NCBI RefSeq assembly: GCF_017355185.1
Contig: NZ_JADILJ010000030.1
Span: forward strand, 1 to 42,790
From: Rathayibacter sp. SD072
Lineage (GTDB): Bacteria > Actinomycetota > Actinomycetes > Actinomycetales > Microbacteriaceae
Direction of reading: 5' to 3'
DNA length: 42,790 nt
Shown: piece after piece, positions 23,132-28,892 of the stretch
Position numbering within the stretch: position 1 is the first letter of the stretch
How the letters are laid out: each line of letters starts with the position of its first letter
Made by a program: the position numbers and the translations under genes
The notes under the pieces: model-generated
What the model was told of the DNA's origin: nothing
Databases searched by the model: none
Seen by the model: only the letters and a program-made list of their open reading frames with translations

Positions 23132-23249
23132 TGTGAGTTCCGACGCGCATGCGTTCCGTGAGGGGACGGTCGACGGGGACGCCACGGCGGTCGAGGTGGC
23201 GCCGCATCGTTCTGCGGCGGAACCTGTCCCGTACGTGTGAGTTCCGACG
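23132..23249. repeat. 14-bp direct repeat pair at the edge of the ars island
   Basis: TGTGAGTTCCGACG occurs at 23132-23145 and again at 23236-23249, 90 bp apart, between the GyrA-like gene and arsC. No gene lies between. It may be a relic of an insertion or recombination at the island boundary; I found no matching copy at the right edge near 28793. Confidence 0.5.
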
Positions 23250-23256
23250 ATGTCCG

Positions 23257-23274
23257 GCGGCGTTGCAACGCCGC
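23257..23274 (-). terminator. 18-bp palindrome downstream of arsC
   Basis: GCGGCGTTG and CAACGCCGC abut in a perfect palindrome 12 bp beyond the arsC stop. Probably the terminator of the MIP-flavoprotein-arsC operon. Confidence 0.55.
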
Positions 23275-23286
23275 TCCGTGTCGCGC

Positions 23287-23679
23287 CTAGTGGAGGAGTT
23301 CGGCCTGGATCCGAGCGGCGACGGCCTCGCGGAGGGGACGGACGTTCTCGGCGCTCCAGTCGGCCGGGTCGGGGAACGTCCATTCCAGGAATCGGCCGGT
23401 CGGGGTCGCGGGCAGGGTGAGGCCGGGCTTCATGGCGACGACGATGTCCGCCTTCTCGAGGTCCGCGACCGTGACGGCGCGGGGGGTGCGGTCGCTGATG
23501 TCGAGGCCGAGCTCCGCGACGGTCGCAGCGATCGCGGGGTTCACCGTGTCGGCGGGCGAGAGGCCGGCGGAGGTGGCGGTGTAGCGGTCGCCGGCGAGGA
23601 CGTCGAGCAGGCCTGCGCCGAGTTGGGAGCGGCCGGCGTTGTGCTGGCAGAGGAAGAGGACGGTGGGCTTCTCGCTCAT
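23287..23679 (-). CDS. arsC: Arsenate reductase, LMW-phosphatase type
   Basis: 130 residues. P-loop FLCQHNAGRSQ with nucleophile Cys11 and Arg17, TSAG at 36-39, and the general-acid loop FPDPADW with Asp104. This is the low-molecular-weight phosphatase-related arsenate reductase. With no second and third catalytic Cys of the thioredoxin-linked S. aureus type, it probably works with mycothiol/mycoredoxin as in corynebacteria (inference). It reduces As(V) to As(III) in the cytoplasm. ATG overlaps the flavoprotein stop by 4 bp, so it is the third gene of the unit MIP channel, flavoprotein, arsC. Confidence 0.93.
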   Translation of the reverse strand: MSEKPTVLFLCQHNAGRSQLGAGLLDVLAGDRYTATSAGLSPADTVNPAIAATVAELGLDISDRTPRAVTVADLEKADIVVAMKPGLTLPATPTGRFLEWTFPDPADWSAENVRPLREAVAARIQAELLH

Positions 23680-25061
23680 GCGGGGGTCACGGCTCCAGTG
23701 TTCGTGCGGGTCCAGGTCTGGGTGGCGATCTGCACGGCGTCCCAGGGGGAGCCGAGCGGGGGTGTGTAGGAGAGGTCGAGGTCGGAGACCTGCTCGACGG
23801 TGAGGCCGGCGAACAGGGCGGTCGCGTAGGTGTCGACGCGCTTGGCGGTCTCGGTGCCGAGGCGTCCGACGAGCTGCGCGCCGAGCAGGCGTCCGTCGCG
23901 CGTGTCGCCGGTGATGCGGATGGTGATCGGCTGCGCGCCGGGGTAGTAGCGCTTGTGGTCGTCCGCGACCGCGGTCGTCGTCGCCGGGGCGAAGCCGGCG
24001 GCGAGGGCCTCGTGCTCACGCAGGCCGGTGCGGGAGGCGACGAGGTCGAACACCTTCACGACCTGCGTGCCGACAGACCCGGCGAACCGGGCGTCGCCGC
24101 CGAGGGCGTTCTCGCCCGCGACCCGGCCCTGCTTGTGCGCGGTCGTGCCCAGCGGCAGGTAGGTGCTGCCGAGCAGGCGGTGGTGGGTGGTCACTCCGTC
24201 GCCCGCGGCGAACACGTGCGGGAGGCCGGTGCGCATGGCCTCGTCGACGACGACGGCGCGGCCGGCGCCGAGGGAGGCTCCGGCGCGGGCGAGGAGGTCG
24301 GTGTTCGGCTTCACTCCGACGACCAGGAGCACGACGTCGGCGGTCCGAGTGAGGGGTGTGCCGTCGTGGTCGGCGTGGACGGCGAGTCCGGTGGCGGTCT
24401 TCTCGATCGAGGCGACGGTGGTGCGAGTGAGGACTTCGACGCCGTGCTGGTCGAGCTCGGTGTGGACGAGGGCGCCGAGTTCGGGGTCGAGGGTGGAGAG
24501 CACTTCCGGGCCGCGCTGCAGCTGGGTGACGCGCAGGCCGCGGACGGTGAGGGCTTCGGCCATCTCGAGGCCGACGTAGCCGGCGCCGACGATGATCGCG
24601 GTCTGCGGGTCGCGGCTGTCGAGGAACCGCTCGAGCGCGAAGGTGTCGCCCATCGAGTGCAGCACGTGCACGCCGTCCTCGGGGCCGAGCCGGTGCACGC
24701 CGACGATCCCGGCGGAGGAGGCGAGGGCGCCGGTGCCGACGATCAGCTCGTCGTACCCGATCCGGTCGAGCGTCCCGTCCGGGGTGCGGACGGTGAGCTG
24801 CTGTCCGGCGACGTCGATGTCGGTCGCGAAGGTGTCCAGGCGCAGGGTCATGCCGGTGGCTTCGAGGTCCACGTGGGTGCGGTGCGCGAGGGACTGCCAG
24901 GGCTGCACCTCGCGGGAGAAGTAGTACGGGATCCCGCAGATGGAGAAGTTCGGGTAGGAGTCGGCGACGACGACGGTCACGTCGACGGACGGGTCGAGCT
25001 CGCGGGCGCGCAGCGCGGCGGAGATCCCCGCGTCGCTGCCGCCGATGGCGACGAGATGCAT
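23676..25061 (-). CDS. FAD/NAD(P)-dependent disulfide oxidoreductase (CoA-disulfide-reductase-like)
   Basis: 461 residues. FAD-binding start IGGSDAGISAALRAREL (G.S.AG in place of G.G.AG). Residue Cys in YPNFSICGIPYYFS corresponds to the single redox Cys of CoA-disulfide reductases and NADH oxidases. NAD(P) site VGAGYVGLEMAEAL at ~155, FAD segment HVFAAGDGV, and a C-terminal dimerisation domain (KVFDLVASRTGL, GAQLVGR). It may recycle the thiol cofactor that ArsC consumes, such as an arsenic-linked low-molecular-weight thiol (inference). Sits between the MIP and arsC genes and overlaps arsC. Confidence 0.88.
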   Translation of the reverse strand: MHLVAIGGSDAGISAALRARELDPSVDVTVVVADSYPNFSICGIPYYFSREVQPWQSLAHRTHVDLEATGMTLRLDTFATDIDVAGQQLTVRTPDGTLDRIGYDELIVGTGALASSAGIVGVHRLGPEDGVHVLHSMGDTFALERFLDSRDPQTAIIVGAGYVGLEMAEALTVRGLRVTQLQRGPEVLSTLDPELGALVHTELDQHGVEVLTRTTVASIEKTATGLAVHADHDGTPLTRTADVVLLVVGVKPNTDLLARAGASLGAGRAVVVDEAMRTGLPHVFAAGDGVTTHHRLLGSTYLPLGTTAHKQGRVAGENALGGDARFAGSVGTQVVKVFDLVASRTGLREHEALAAGFAPATTTAVADDHKRYYPGAQPITIRITGDTRDGRLLGAQLVGRLGTETAKRVDTYATALFAGLTVEQVSDLDLSYTPPLGSPWDAVQIATQTWTRTNTGAVTPA

Positions 25062-25077
25062 CAGAAGGCCTTTCGGA

Positions 25078-25833
25078 TCAGACGTGTGACGAGGTCGAGG
25101 CGGCCGGGACCACGAGGCTCCCGGCGGTCCGGGCGGCGCCCGGGAAGAGGAACACGGCGATGCCGACGCCGATCACGGCGCCGGCGAGCTGCGCGGCGAC
25201 GAAGGGCAGGACGGAGGTGGGGGCGATGCCGGCGAAGGTGTCGGTGACGACGCGGCCGAGGGTCACGGCGGGGTTCGCGAACGAGGTCGAGGACGTGAAC
25301 CAGTACGCGGCGCCGATGTACGCGCCGACCGCGGCCGCCGCGAGCGGGCCGCGGTCCGTCCGGGCGAGGGAGAGGATCACGAGGACCAAGCCGGCGGTGG
25401 CGACGACCTCCCCGAGCAGGTGCCCGGCGGTGACGCGCTCGGTCGTCGCGATCGCCGTCGGGACCTCGAACATCGCGTTCGCGAGGACCGCTCCGCTGAT
25501 CCCGCCGAGCAGCTGCGCGCCGACGAACACCGCCAGCTCACGGCCCGACAGGCCGGAGCGGTCGCGGCGACCGAGGAGCGCGTCGACGGCGGAGACGAGC
25601 GGGTTGAAGTGCGCCCCCGACACAGGGCCGAAGACGAGGATCAGCACCGCGAGTCCCAGAGCGGTCGCGAGGGAGTTCTCCAGCAGTTGCAGGCCGACGT
25701 CGTCCGGGGAGAGGGTCTGCGCGGCGATGCCGGAGCCGACGACGATCGCCACGAGCAGGCCCGTGCCGAGGAACTCGGCCACGGCCCGACGAGCGAGCGG
25801 AGGAGGGGAGGTGGTGTCCATGACGTTCGCCAT
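25078..25833 (-). CDS. MIP/aquaporin-family channel, probable As(III) exit route
   Basis: 251 residues, six TM helices with two half-helices. The first pore motif is NPL (GAHFNPLVSAVD) rather than NPA; the second is canonical (SFANPAVTLGR). The AEFLGTG start of helix 1 is typical. MIP channels in ars operons (AqpS type) let As(III) leave the cell down its gradient after ArsC reduction. Here it heads the operon and no Acr3/ArsB pump is present, so it is the only visible exporter. Start uncertain: ATG 25833 or ATG 25821 (MDTT). Divergent from the ArsR-ArsC fusion gene with a shared operator region. Confidence 0.9.
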   Translation of the reverse strand: MANVMDTTSPPPLARRAVAEFLGTGLLVAIVVGSGIAAQTLSPDDVGLQLLENSLATALGLAVLILVFGPVSGAHFNPLVSAVDALLGRRDRSGLSGRELAVFVGAQLLGGISGAVLANAMFEVPTAIATTERVTAGHLLGEVVATAGLVLVILSLARTDRGPLAAAAVGAYIGAAYWFTSSTSFANPAVTLGRVVTDTFAGIAPTSVLPFVAAQLAGAVIGVGIAVFLFPGAARTAGSLVVPAASTSSHV

Positions 25834-25872
25834 CTTGACCGCTCGCGATCACTCAGTCAAGATTGAGTCAAT
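25834..25872. promoter_or_regulatory. Divergent ars promoter with ArsR-type operator
   Basis: Plus strand: TTGACC (25835-25840), 18-bp spacer, AAGATT (25859-25864), 6 nt, then ATG 25871, a strong leaderless promoter. The -10 is embedded in the inverted repeats ACTCA/TGAGT (25851-25855, 25864-25868) and TCAA-GA-TTGA (25857-25866), and AGTCAA is repeated directly at 25855 and 25867. Bound ArsR would block the -10 and the divergent MIP promoter together. Confidence 0.7.
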
Positions 25873-26539
25873 GAACACCGAGCGAACCGAACTCGAATCG
25901 CGTGCCGCCCGGCATGCGGCCCTCAGTGATCCCGCACGCCTGCGGATCACCGACCTGCTCACCCTCGGAGACCTGGCGCCGCGAGAGCTGCAGGACCGGC
26001 TCGGGATGCCCTCGAACCTCGTCGCGCACCACCTCGCTGTGCTCGAGCGCGAGGGCATGATCCTCCGGCGCCGTTCGGAGGCGGACCGGCGCCGGACCTA
26101 CGTGCACCTGGTCCCCGACGCCTTCGACCAGCTCGGGCCTTCGACCACCGCCGCCGCGCGGCGGGTGCTGTTCGTGTGCACGGCGAACTCCGCCCGCTCC
26201 CAGCTCGCCGCCCAGCTCTGGGCGCAGCGCAGCCCCATCCCCGTCGCCTCCGCCGGCACGCACCCGGCCACCGCGGTGGCGGCCGGAGCGATCGCGACCG
26301 CCGAACGTCACGGCCTCCCGATACCCGAAGACGCCCCGCGGCAGTTCGCAGACGTCGCCGCCGATACCGACCTCATCATCACCGTCTGCGACGCCGCTCA
26401 CGAGGAGCTCGGTTCGGACGCGCTGCACTGGTCGATCCCCGACCCGGTGCCCGCCGGCACGGACGCCGCGTTCGATGCCGCCTACGACGAGATCGTCGCG
26501 CGCGTCGACGCTCTCGCGGCGAGAGTCATCGCCGCCTGA
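25871..26539 (+). CDS. ArsR-LMW arsenate-reductase fusion protein
   Basis: 222 residues. Residues 1-92 are an ArsR-type winged helix (AALSDPARLRITDLL, MPSNLVAHHLAVLEREGMI, RRTYVHLV). Residues 97-222 are an LMW-PTP/ArsC domain with VLFVCTANSARSQ (Cys103, Arg109), SAGTHPA, and acid loop IPDPVP (Asp191). The ArsR half has no Cys at all, so it cannot bind As(III) in the classical way; the only Cys are Cys103 and Cys173 of the reductase half. It may sense arsenate or the redox state through that half (inference). Leaderless. Its stop abuts that of the convergent arsR gene (TGATCA). Confidence 0.9.
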   Translation: MNTERTELESRAARHAALSDPARLRITDLLTLGDLAPRELQDRLGMPSNLVAHHLAVLEREGMILRRRSEADRRRTYVHLVPDAFDQLGPSTTAAARRVLFVCTANSARSQLAAQLWAQRSPIPVASAGTHPATAVAAGAIATAERHGLPIPEDAPRQFADVAADTDLIITVCDAAHEELGSDALHWSIPDPVPAGTDAAFDAAYDEIVARVDALAARVIAA

Positions 26540-26890
26540 TCAGACGCGGGTGAGCATCCCCGCGAGGGAGTCGAGTGCGCCCGGCACGAGGGAGAAGTAG
26601 GCCCACGTGCCGCGCTTCTCGCGGGCCAGGATCCCGGCGTCCACGAGGACCTTCAAGTGGTGCGACACCGTGGGCTGACTCAGCCCGACCGGCTCCGTGA
26701 AGTCGCAGACGCACACCTCGCCCGAGCTGCTCGACGCGACGATCGACACCAGGCGGAGCCTCGCGGGATCCGCCATCGCCTTCAGTGCCCGTGCCAGCAG
26801 CTCCGCGCCCTCGGCGCTCAGCGGCTCGCGCGCGAGCGGCGCGCAGCACGCGGCCGCCGCCGCGGTGAGAGTCAGCTCGGTCGTCGCCAT
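26540..26890 (-). CDS. arsR: ArsR-family As(III)-responsive repressor
   Basis: 116 residues from ATG 26890 (GGAGG close upstream). Winged helix with ALKAMADPARLRLVSIV and PVGLSQPTVSHHLKVLVDAG. Cys15-Cys16 (AACCAPL), plus CVCDF in the helix before the recognition helix, match the CC + C arrangement known from the Corynebacterium glutamicum ArsR1 As(III) site. It should release DNA on binding As(III). It is divergent from the monooxygenase/acetyltransferase pair and probably controls both through the intergenic operator. Directly convergent with the ArsR-ArsC fusion. Confidence 0.93.
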   Translation of the reverse strand: MATTELTLTAAAAACCAPLAREPLSAEGAELLARALKAMADPARLRLVSIVASSSSGEVCVCDFTEPVGLSQPTVSHHLKVLVDAGILAREKRGTWAYFSLVPGALDSLAGMLTRV

Positions 26891-26904
26891 GCCTCCACTC
26901 TCGC

Positions 26905-26970
26905 ACACATTGACAATCATCGATATAGCGGGGCAGACTCGGTCCATCGATGACCGTCGATGTCGAGGAG
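26905..26970. promoter_or_regulatory. Divergent arsR / monooxygenase promoter-operator
   Basis: An AT-rich patch contains TTGACA (26910-26915), 18-bp spacer, CAGACT (26934-26939) for the rightward unit. ATTGACAATCATCGATAT overlaps its -35, and CATCGATG recurs at 26945-26952. ATCGAT repeats of this kind are typical of ArsR-family operators in actinobacteria. GAGGAG at 26965-26970 is the RBS of the rightward gene. Confidence 0.6.
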
Positions 26971-26978
26971 TGCACCTG

Positions 26979-28298
26979 ATGACCCTGCTGCTGACCGTCC
27001 CGCACCGCACCGACGAGCGCCGCCTCACCGGCCTCCCCGTCGCCGTCATCGGCGCCGGCCCTGTCGGTCTGGCCGCTGCCGCGCAGCTGCTCGAGCGCGG
27101 CCTCGACGTCATCGTCTACGAGGCTGGCGAGAGCGCCGGCGCTGCCGTGCAGCAGTGGGGCCACACCCGCCTGTTCTCCCCGTGGGAGTACCTGGTCGAC
27201 GCCGCCGCTGCACGCCTGCTCGACGCGAGCGGTTGGGAGGCGCCCGCAGCGAAGAAGCTGCCCACCGGGCACGAGTTCGTCCGCGACTACCTTGCGCCCC
27301 TCGCCGCGACTCCGCAGCTCGCCCCCGTCATCCGCTACCGCTCCCGCGTCACCGCCGTCACCCGCGAGGGCATGGACCGCACCCGTTCCACCGGCCGCGC
27401 CGCCACTCCGTTCCTGCTGCGCCTGGACACGCTGGAGGGCTCCGTCGACGTCACCGCCCGCGCCGTGATCGACACCTCGGGCACCTACTCCACGCCGAAC
27501 GCCCTCGCCTCCGCGGGCCTCGACCCGATCGGCGCCGCCGACGTCGCCGAGCACCTCAGCCATGCGCTGCCGGACGTGCTCGGCGCCGACCGCGCCCGAT
27601 TCGCCGGGAAGAGCGTGCTCGTCGTCGGTGCCGGGCACTCCGCGGCGAACACGCTGATCAAGCTCGCTCGTCTCGCCCGCGAGGAACCGGGCACGAGCAT
27701 CACCTGGGGGATCCGCGGCATCAGCCCGCTGCGCGTCTTCGGCTCGAGCGATGACGAGCTGGAGGAGCGCGGCAAGCTCGGCGGCACCGTGCACCAGCTC
27801 GTGCGCGACGGCGCGATCACCCTCCTGGACCGCTTCGAGATCGACCGCCTCGAGAAGACCGCCACCGGCCGGGTCGCCGTCCTCGGGCGACGCCGGAAGG
27901 AGCGCGAGAGCGTCGAGGCCGACGTCGTCGTGCAGGCGACCGGGTTCCGGCCCGACCTCGACATGCTGCGCGAGATCCGCGTCTCTCTGGACGAGATCGT
28001 GGAAGCACCCCGCGCCCTCGCGACCCTCATCGACCCGAACCTGCACTCCTGCGGCACGGTCGACCCGCACGGCGTCGCCGAGCTCGCGCACCCTGAGCCG
28101 AACTTCTACATCGCCGGCATGAAGTCCTACGGCCGCGCCCCGACGTTCCTGCTCGTCACCGGTTACGAGCAGGTCCGCTCCATCGCGGACGAGCTCGCCG
28201 GCGATCACGCAGCCGCCCGGCGCGTGCAGCTCGTGCTCCCCGAGACCGGCGTCTGCTCCACCGACATCGGATCCGCCGGAGGAAGCTGCTGCTCATGA
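26979..28298 (+). CDS. ars-linked FAD/NAD(P) monooxygenase-like flavoprotein
   Basis: 439 residues. FAD site VIGAGPVGLAAAAQLLERG (23-41) followed by VYEAG, NAD(P) site VVGAGHSAANT (~212), and ATGFRPDLDML. Overall plan is that of flavin-containing monooxygenase/thioredoxin-reductase-like enzymes found in ars operons (ArsO-type). The C-terminal tail ends in GVCSTD and GGSCCS, three Cys that could bind As(III) or an arsenic-thiol. Role in arsenic chemistry is inferred from the operon: divergent from arsR and overlapping the acetyltransferase gene by ATGA. Substrate unknown; could oxidise or process an organoarsenical. Confidence 0.82.
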   Translation: MTLLLTVPHRTDERRLTGLPVAVIGAGPVGLAAAAQLLERGLDVIVYEAGESAGAAVQQWGHTRLFSPWEYLVDAAAARLLDASGWEAPAAKKLPTGHEFVRDYLAPLAATPQLAPVIRYRSRVTAVTREGMDRTRSTGRAATPFLLRLDTLEGSVDVTARAVIDTSGTYSTPNALASAGLDPIGAADVAEHLSHALPDVLGADRARFAGKSVLVVGAGHSAANTLIKLARLAREEPGTSITWGIRGISPLRVFGSSDDELEERGKLGGTVHQLVRDGAITLLDRFEIDRLEKTATGRVAVLGRRRKERESVEADVVVQATGFRPDLDMLREIRVSLDEIVEAPRALATLIDPNLHSCGTVDPHGVAELAHPEPNFYIAGMKSYGRAPTFLLVTGYEQVRSIADELAGDHAAARRVQLVLPETGVCSTDIGSAGGSCCS

Positions 28299-28792
28299 CC
28301 GCCACCCGGCCGATGGCCCCCGAGGACTGGGCGGCGGTCGAGGCGATCTACCGCGACGGGATCGCCACCGGACACGCCACCTTCGAGGTCGAACCGCCGA
28401 CATGCGAGGCGTTCGATGCAGGGAAGCTCGACGTCGGACGCCTGGTCGCCGTCGACGGCGAGCAGATCCTCGGGTGGACGGCGCTCTCGCCGGTGTCGAG
28501 CCGGCCCGTCTATCGAGGGGTGGTCGAGCACTCCGTCTACATCGCGTCGTCCGCCCGCGGCCGCGGCATCGGCGCCGAACTCCTGCAGGCACTCATCGAG
28601 GCAGCGGACGCCGCAGGTCTCTGGACGATCCAGTCGAGCATCTTCCCCGAGAACACCGCCAGCCTCGCCCTCCACGACCGCGCCGGCTTCCGCCGCGTCG
28701 GCACCCGCGACCGGATCGCGCAGATGACCCACGGACCAGCCGCCGGTACCTGGCGCGACACAGTCCTCATCGAGCGCCGGCGCCCGTCCTGA
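28295..28792 (+). CDS. GNAT N-acetyltransferase, ArsN/phosphinothricin-type
   Basis: 165 residues. GNAT fold of the PAT/Bar subgroup: AIYRDGIATGHATFEVEPP, GWTALSPVSSRPVYRGVVEHSVYI, the acetyl-CoA loop ARGRGIGAELLQALI, SIFPENTASLALHDRAGFRRVG, and WRDTVLIERR. The HATFE and RGVVE-SVYI blocks are those of phosphinothricin and arsinothricin acetyltransferases (ArsN). In an ars operon, acetylation of arsinothricin, a natural arsenic antibiotic, is the likely function. ATG overlaps the flavoprotein stop by 4 bp. Homology is clear; the exact substrate is inferred. Confidence 0.87.
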   Translation: MTATRPMAPEDWAAVEAIYRDGIATGHATFEVEPPTCEAFDAGKLDVGRLVAVDGEQILGWTALSPVSSRPVYRGVVEHSVYIASSARGRGIGAELLQALIEAADAAGLWTIQSSIFPENTASLALHDRAGFRRVGTRDRIAQMTHGPAAGTWRDTVLIERRRPS

Positions 28793-28892
28793 TCTTTCCC
28801 TGGCCCCGCGACGGGCACCGTCGTCGTGAAGGAACGAGTCGGCCCACGAGGGGAAGAACCCTCTCGGCCTCCGCAGGCGCTCCGATGTCCGC

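Follow-up and report, generated by a model that had tools for sequence, protein, structure and literature searches.

A channel can serve arsenite as a way out of the cell: AqpS is the precedent in the available part of PMC6205960, which also treats ArsR-ArsC fusions as known and calls their function open. In 2018, two ars clusters with AqpS, arsC, an FAD oxidoreductase and an ArsN-like acetyltransferase were reported for Pseudarthrobacter sp. AG30 (PMC6256500). Here we analyze a locus of Rathayibacter sp. SD072, contained in a stretch of 42,790 nucleotides (contig NZ_JADILJ010000030.1, positions 1 to 42,790 of the forward strand; hereafter the window). Seven genes at 23287-28792, arranged as two divergent pairs of units, encode a small arsenate reductase (arsC1), a coenzyme A-disulfide-reductase-like (CoADR-like) enzyme, a MIP channel, an ArsR-ArsC fusion, a stand-alone ArsR, a second flavoprotein and an ArsN-like acetyltransferase; neither Acr3 nor ArsB is encoded among them. 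Judged from its sequence, the locus as a whole is probably a transferable arsenate-detoxification cassette with a channel as exit and a second module beside it. We report its gene content, recurrence, operator and cysteine patterns, together with the lack of a true Acr3 or a canonical ArsB in the assembly.

The 5.5 kb block is 91-93% identical at the DNA level in four Rathayibacter-genus genomes (G003, G006, G008 and G010), in a record titled Microbacterium sp. VKM Ac-2923 and on a plasmid of Rathayibacter festucae. A partial block is present in two more cases, genome G001 and a record titled Microbacterium sp. 5K110. Within the fetched stretches, no similarity extends past the cassette edges at E 1e-20. 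The preliminary description of the locus had raised the matter of the same gene order in other Microbacteriaceae, and that order was indeed found: homologues follow it in five other same-genus genomes (14 searched). In G001 the order is the same but arsR and the second flavoprotein are missing; a rearranged version occurs in G018, which belongs to another genus. Such recurrence of the gene set is not chance. The cassette is real, recurrent and mobile, with flanks that differ between copies and one copy on a plasmid.

To describe the wider distribution we used the best 80 of at least 351 confirmed loci with a CoADR-like gene; several come from the same genome, and hence the counts are not independent. 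In the fetched stretches, an ArsC homologue is present at 78 of these loci, MIP at 68, the fusion at 59, the second flavoprotein at 47, an ArsN homologue at 31 and the full set at 21. The two loci lacking ArsC are pieces of 9.8 and 3.2 kb, with MIP present. True Acr3 was found by the query used in 0/80. The families and catalytic motifs of the cassette proteins are intact, and the features of the locus are as follows (window coordinates).

23235..28794, no strand: the cassette, i.e. the homologous block; its edges are where DNA similarity to other fetched stretches ends
23287..23679, minus strand: arsC1, low-molecular-weight-phosphatase type, with P-loop CQHNAGRS containing its sole Cys
23676..25061, minus strand: CoADR-like FAD enzyme with a single active-site Cys, overlapping arsC1 by 4 bp
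25078..25833, minus strand: MIP channel of the ars-linked (AqpS-like) type, boxes NPL and NPAV; the start is 12 bp later in one relative's annotation
25853..25867, no strand: operator TCAGTCAAGATTGAG, in the gap between the divergent MIP and fusion genes; the only exact copy in the genome
25871..26539, plus strand: ArsR-ArsC fusion, 222 aa in one frame; winged helix without Cys, ArsC part with Cys103 and Cys173 only
26540..26890, minus strand: stand-alone arsR with N-terminal CC and CVCD motifs; its end abuts the fusion stop codon
26891..26978, no strand: divergent arsR/flavoprotein intergenic region, containing an element of the TATTGACA/CATTGACA type
26979..28298, plus strand: second flavoprotein, FAD/NAD(P), with the fold of a flavin-containing monooxygenase (FMO) or disulfide reductase; C-terminal tail TGVC...GGSCCS
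28295..28792, plus strand: GNAT acetyltransferase, ArsN1-A-like, overlapping the second flavoprotein by 4 bp

This inventory of seven genes, their divergent layout and the lack of Acr3 and ArsB at 23287-28792 agree with the preliminary description. Its anatomy was right, and some of its names were stronger than curated cut-offs permit. The second flavoprotein had been called ArsO-type; its match to NF040505 is partial and scores 61.9 bits against a cut-off of 425, and we reject ArsO as its formal name. CoADR is likewise rejected as a formal name for the first flavoprotein (TIGR03385, 313.9 bits versus 578.8), as is ArsN1 for the acetyltransferase, which covers the whole ArsN1-A model NF040503 with 132.4 bits versus a cut-off of 170.

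Searches with the left and right flanks in the 15 genus genomes found no empty insertion site. Both flanks are strongly matched in G006, G007, G012 and G014, where the matches are far apart or on different contigs. We found no tRNA gene at the cassette edges, no anomaly of base composition (GC is 0.67-0.75 throughout) and no sigma-70 promoter (0 found in the search). A 14-bp direct repeat, TGTGAGTTCCGACG, lies at 23132-23145 and 23236-23249, 104 bp apart, and its second copy coincides with the left cassette edge; an exact copy occurs in 0/186 other loci. In G006, the MIP gene is in two frames (L039, 7348-8078), and a canonical ArsB is encoded elsewhere in that genome. In the record titled Microbacterium sp. 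VKM Ac-2923 (L054), the Rathayibacter-type cassette comes together with an SBF gene that matches its counterpart on the R. festucae plasmid at 100% identity, which reflects either a recent transfer or a mislabelled record.

We infer a scheme with two modules, including each chemical step, which way arsenite is transported, that the fusion represses, and what both flavoproteins and the ArsN-like protein act on. In the first module (fusion / MIP-CoADR-arsC), the fusion would repress the short divergent promoter region via the conserved operator. On induction, the single-Cys ArsC would use a small thiol to reduce arsenate, NAD(P)H spent by the CoADR-like enzyme would keep this thiol (or the ArsC enzyme) in its reduced form, and uncharged arsenite would leave the cell down its gradient through the MIP channel. 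In the second module (arsR / flavoprotein-arsN), a conventional Cys-bearing ArsR would control the Cys-tailed flavoprotein and the ArsN1-like acetyltransferase, with a trivalent organoarsenical or an arsenical antibiotic as the probable target. A cassette of this kind would mean that Actinomycetota have, besides arsenic resistance based on pumps, a recurrent and mobile alternative.

The channel protein matches PF00230 with 88.4 bits (cut-off 25), carries two NP-x boxes (NPL and NPA) and is encoded beside arsC. In each family we counted only proteins free of internal stops and open ends, which left 67 MIP sequences from 68 loci, 44 second flavoproteins (FMO) from 47 and 78 CoADR-like enzymes from 80. 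The second box reads NPA[VI]T in 66/67 of these MIP relatives; NPAR is seen in 0/38 others, and an ars-linked MIP of Novosphingobium has NPAIT. The position after the second NPA box, V/I rather than R here, is presumably the site of the selectivity-filter arginine. These sequences support placing the channel in an ars-linked group that lacks this arginine, with As(III) conduction predicted. In 218 genomes of the order, MIP genes of this type (E up to 1e-20) have ArsC nearby at 25/31 loci and any ars gene at 27/31. The SD072 genome contains a second, weak MIP match, 39% identical, on contig C56.

The relatives of arsC1 have one Cys in 49/50 cases, and its best solved relatives are the C. glutamicum structures 3t38 and 3rh0. 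With only one Cys, arsC1 lacks the three-Cys set of thioredoxin-type ArsC; the single Cys and the likeness to 3t38/3rh0 suggest a mycothiol-type enzyme. The closest solved relatives of the CoADR-like enzyme are NADH oxidases, a CoA-persulfide reductase and CoA-disulfide reductases, and its Cys42 aligns with the Cys of 8a56, 3cgb and 3icr. This active-site Cys is present in 78/78 relatives, in 71 of them as the sole Cys. The C-terminal motif is YTPPL in 77/78 and YTPPF in one, versus YAPPY in 3cgb and 3icr; the second Tyr of YxPPY, which we take to be a functional residue of CoA-disulfide reductase, is thus replaced.

In the order sample the CoADR-like gene is rare (5 copies in 4/218 genomes), and all copies lie beside ars genes, once next to Acr3. 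Among plasmids, 66 records match it, and 10/11 of those inspected have arsenic transport or ArsC/ArsA annotated beside it; these 10 span Actinomycetota, Bacillota, Pseudomonadota and Cyanobacteriota. Because it stands beside ars genes in four phyla, and also with Acr3, the CoADR-like enzyme is a general accessory of ars genes rather than a partner of the channel alone. Among the matches listed in our literature search, no publication was on point about this gene in ars operons.

The eleventh plasmid, from Mycobacterium lentiflavum (L184, 341-3682), carries, at the record end, a two-Cys, fusion-like ArsR-ArsC gene with pstS and the CoADR-like gene directly after it, an order hinting at an arsenate/phosphate connection. 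On a Calothrix plasmid, a 'putative channel protein' gene (L182, 11120-11752) lies near arsenical-resistance genes and a CoADR-like 'NADH oxidase', with a GAPDH gene close by.

The part that we assign to the CoADR-like enzyme, thiol recycling, has an alternative: both it and the Cys-tailed flavoprotein may act directly on arsenicals rather than on thiols, for example as an NADH-driven reductase or oxidase of thiol-bound or organic arsenic. The company that the CoADR-like gene keeps with ars genes whichever transporter is present would fit direct action, as would the flavoprotein tail with at least three Cys in 44/44 relatives and the resemblance of the flavoprotein model to both YpdA disulfide reductase and N-hydroxylating monooxygenases. 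However, the CoADR-like protein retains the CoADR-type single Cys and a CoADR-like fold family, and our searches found no structure or publication with arsenic as substrate of either enzyme. We regard direct action as possible, though rather doubtful, and keep thiol recycling as the putative role.

On whether the channel replaces a pump, the preliminary description is supported in part: MIP and true Acr3 tend to avoid each other. In the order sample, MIP is present in 31/218 genomes, true Acr3 in 104/218 and both in 5. Acr3 accompanies 5/31 MIP genomes versus 99/187 others (Fisher one-sided P 9e-5), and among 60 relatives it is found in 0/21 with MIP above 120 bits versus 15/39 others (P 5e-4); these samples share some genomes, and relatedness is not taken into account in the P values. 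Strict exclusion is rejected, given the five genomes with both. In the SD072 assembly, which is 97% complete, we found neither a true Acr3 (best TIGR00832 match 33.9-34.3 bits, cut-off 282.8) nor a canonical ArsB (best PF02040 match 78.5 bits, versus 317-319 and 203-204 bits in G005/G006), which supports the preliminary description.

Several points weigh against our scheme, among them the relatedness and the incomplete assembly just mentioned. The five genomes with both genes belong to one family, and in each the two lie no more than about 9 kb apart on a single contig. At 4/31 of the order-level MIP loci (one at a contig end), the queries used found no ars genes nearby. A passive channel can also admit arsenite. 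The best Acr3-model match in SD072 is a distant SBF/Acr3-like paralogue on contig C96, and the 78.5-bit ArsB-like gene, on contig C26, exceeds the cut-off set by Pfam (22.2). The CoADR-like gene of L. plantarum accompanies arsD, arsA and arsB with no annotated arsC, so the enzyme may serve arsenite handling rather than ArsC.

The real arsenite exit might therefore be one of these two proteins, with MIP as an auxiliary or uptake channel. The C96 protein is a candidate exporter because it is 65% identical to the 'bile acid:sodium symporter' adjoining the same cassette on the R. festucae plasmid, and because SBF genes occur in 9/80 of the best CoADR loci. With this paralogue, whose 65%-identical relatives lie in ars loci, the earlier view of the channel as the only exit was too strong. 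The proposition that the genome holds no other candidate exit is rejected in view of both the C96 and the C26 gene. Yet the C96 protein scores 34 bits on the Acr3 model, versus a cut-off of 283, and its neighbors, read from their translations, are housekeeping and transport genes rather than ars genes. The C26 gene sits among sugar-phosphate and ilvD-like genes, as likewise read from translations, and an ArsB-like match of this kind turns up in all 15 genus genomes, whether or not they have the cassette. No copy of the cassette operator within two mismatches was found on either contig. A pump elsewhere as the real exit is thus improbable in our estimation.

An SBF gene and a MerR regulator lie beside the ars cassette on the R. 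festucae plasmid (L165, 1507-3316) and on Arthrobacter pAD51 (L168, 10129-11385); the R. festucae cassette is also adjoined by a thioredoxin gene. The SBF proteins of these two cassettes are possible second exporters, of arsenic or antimony.

The fusion matches HTH_5 (27.1 bits) and LMWPc (59.0 bits), both above cut-off, and 59/59 relatives are in frame. Cys counts were made on 58 complete relatives (55 distinct sequences), with one short sequence (136 aa) excluded. The P-loop CX5RS is present in 58/58, the winged helix is free of Cys in 56/58, and exactly one further Cys besides that of the P-loop occurs in 56/58. We take the cysteines of thioredoxin-type ArsC to be Cys10, Cys82 and Cys89; at the third of these positions the 58 fusions have Leu (50), Ile (6), Phe (1) or Arg (1). 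Twelve more fusions, all but one from outside the family, carry exactly two Cys each; these lie 70 residues apart and outside the winged helix, and the third position is Leu (11) or Ser (1). The predicted ArsC part matches thioredoxin-type arsenate reductases, including 1lk0, whose title reads 'Disulfide intermediate of C89L Arsenate reductase from pI258'. With two of the three Cys kept, the third replaced and the match to 1lk0, the modeled fusion looks like a naturally occurring C89L-type protein. Confidence in the model is high inside each domain (pLDDT 92.9); given a pTM of 0.71, we make no claim about the domain arrangement.

The gap between the divergent MIP and fusion genes measures 23-58 bp in 53/54 loci, and the remaining value (-64) reflects a misassigned start. 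The element TCAANNTTGA is found in these gaps as an exact copy in 44/55, with one mismatch in 10 and with two in 1, against 0.03 expected from shuffles; it also lies within 120 bp upstream of 6/12 of the further fusions. Across the SD072 genome, two-mismatch matches to the operator are at background (11 in total versus 8 for a reversed control). These data are consistent with a fusion that would act as repressor through the operator in the divergent gap.

The fusion could also be a leftover, catalytically dead or purely enzymatic: either it would do no more than reduce arsenate, or it would repress as an ordinary ArsR does, and in both cases its ArsC part would sense nothing. Such fusions have been described before, and the available part of PMC6205960 calls their function open, which leaves room for such a leftover; our literature search on these fusions gave no result. 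The P-loop in 58/58, the second Cys that is kept, the winged helix without Cys in 56/58 and the conserved operator adjoining the gene speak against it, and we consider a leftover somewhat unlikely. A tentative idea, which we put forward with a similar degree of reserve, is that the fusion is an arsenate sensor made from a crippled enzyme and detects arsenate directly. Its DNA-binding part, having no Cys, would not hold arsenite. The ArsC part would attack arsenate and form a Cys103-Cys173 disulfide, which, for want of the family's third Cys, could not be passed on. A single turnover would then flip the repressor to an oxidised, released state, and the neighboring CoADR-like enzyme or its thiol would reset it. 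If so, the channel would be opened only during intracellular arsenate reduction, when a passive channel carries arsenite outwards, that is, by the one signal under which it is helpful and not harmful. Such a fusion would also be a natural arsenate-specific biosensor.

In the second module, relatives of the stand-alone ArsR have CxCD in 41/46 and an N-terminal CC in 40/46, presumably the kind of site found in ordinary arsenite repressors. The tail of the second flavoprotein has CC in 44/44 complete relatives and TGVC in 43/44. Of 73 order-level copies of this flavoprotein, 35 lie within 20 kb of Acr3 and 9 within 20 kb of MIP, which makes it a general ars companion. The likeness of its predicted structure to YpdA and to N-hydroxylating monooxygenases does not settle its chemistry. 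Mean pLDDT of the model is 76.9 and falls below 50 at residues 422-439, so the Cys tail is not placed.

For the acetyltransferase, the residues of reference are Arg75, Arg77 and Tyr80 of PpArsN1 (PMC6465285, available part). Compared indirectly via an alignment with 9igk, Arg77 and Tyr80 seem to be kept and Arg75 seems to be Ser; this S-x-R form is seen in 21/31 ArsN relatives, the pattern used leaving the other 10 unresolved. By analogy with the enzyme in the available part of PMC6465285, arsinothricin is a plausible substrate. The preliminary description had read a pathway for both inorganic arsenic and arsinothricin from the gene set. Such co-residence is ordinary: the same part of PMC6465285 says that arsN1 occurs in many ars operons, and the AG30 clusters are an instance (PMC6256500).

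How, then, does the cassette compare with known systems? Plasmids of At. caldus (pTcM1), L. plantarum (pWCFS103), Calothrix, Streptomyces F8 and Mycolicibacterium chubuense share a 49-68% identical CoADR-like gene among ars genes, but these FAD oxidoreductase or 'NADH oxidase' loci come with Acr3, ArsB or ArsA/ArsD, not with a MIP cassette. A Novosphingobium plasmid carries an arsR-arsC-MIP-arsC-arsH version. In Microbacterium sp. A33, an ArsR-ArsC fusion reportedly acts as a repressor, in a cluster said to carry Acr3 and a thioredoxin system where our locus has MIP and a CoADR-like enzyme. This fusion, arsRC2, likewise belongs to an ars cluster of the Microbacteriaceae (PMC6205960; cluster listed in PMC6514093; both as far as available). 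The AqpS ars operon of Sinorhizobium meliloti, with a MIP as arsenite exit beside ArsC, and the AqpS-ArsC fusion of Salinispora, in which the two are joined, resemble our locus in their exit; unlike it, neither is linked to an ArsR-ArsC fusion or a CoADR-like enzyme in the available part of PMC6205960.

The AG30 clusters share arsR, several arsC and the AqpS gene with the cassette, and both have an FAD-dependent oxidoreductase and an ArsN-like gene; PMC6256500 names no ArsR-ArsC fusion, operator, Cys pattern, cassette edges or gene order. The cassette raises the questions of whether a naturally C89-less ArsC domain serves as an arsenate-sensing switch, what role the widespread CoADR-like ('NADH oxidase') enzyme plays in ars operons, and whether the Cys tail of the second flavoprotein binds trivalent arsenic. 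The layout itself is already known in kind from the 2018 clusters with AqpS, ArsN and an FAD oxidoreductase (PMC6256500); the features that merit a closer look are the sensor-like fusion, the CoADR-like enzyme as an uncharacterised ars accessory, and the flavoprotein with the Cys tail.

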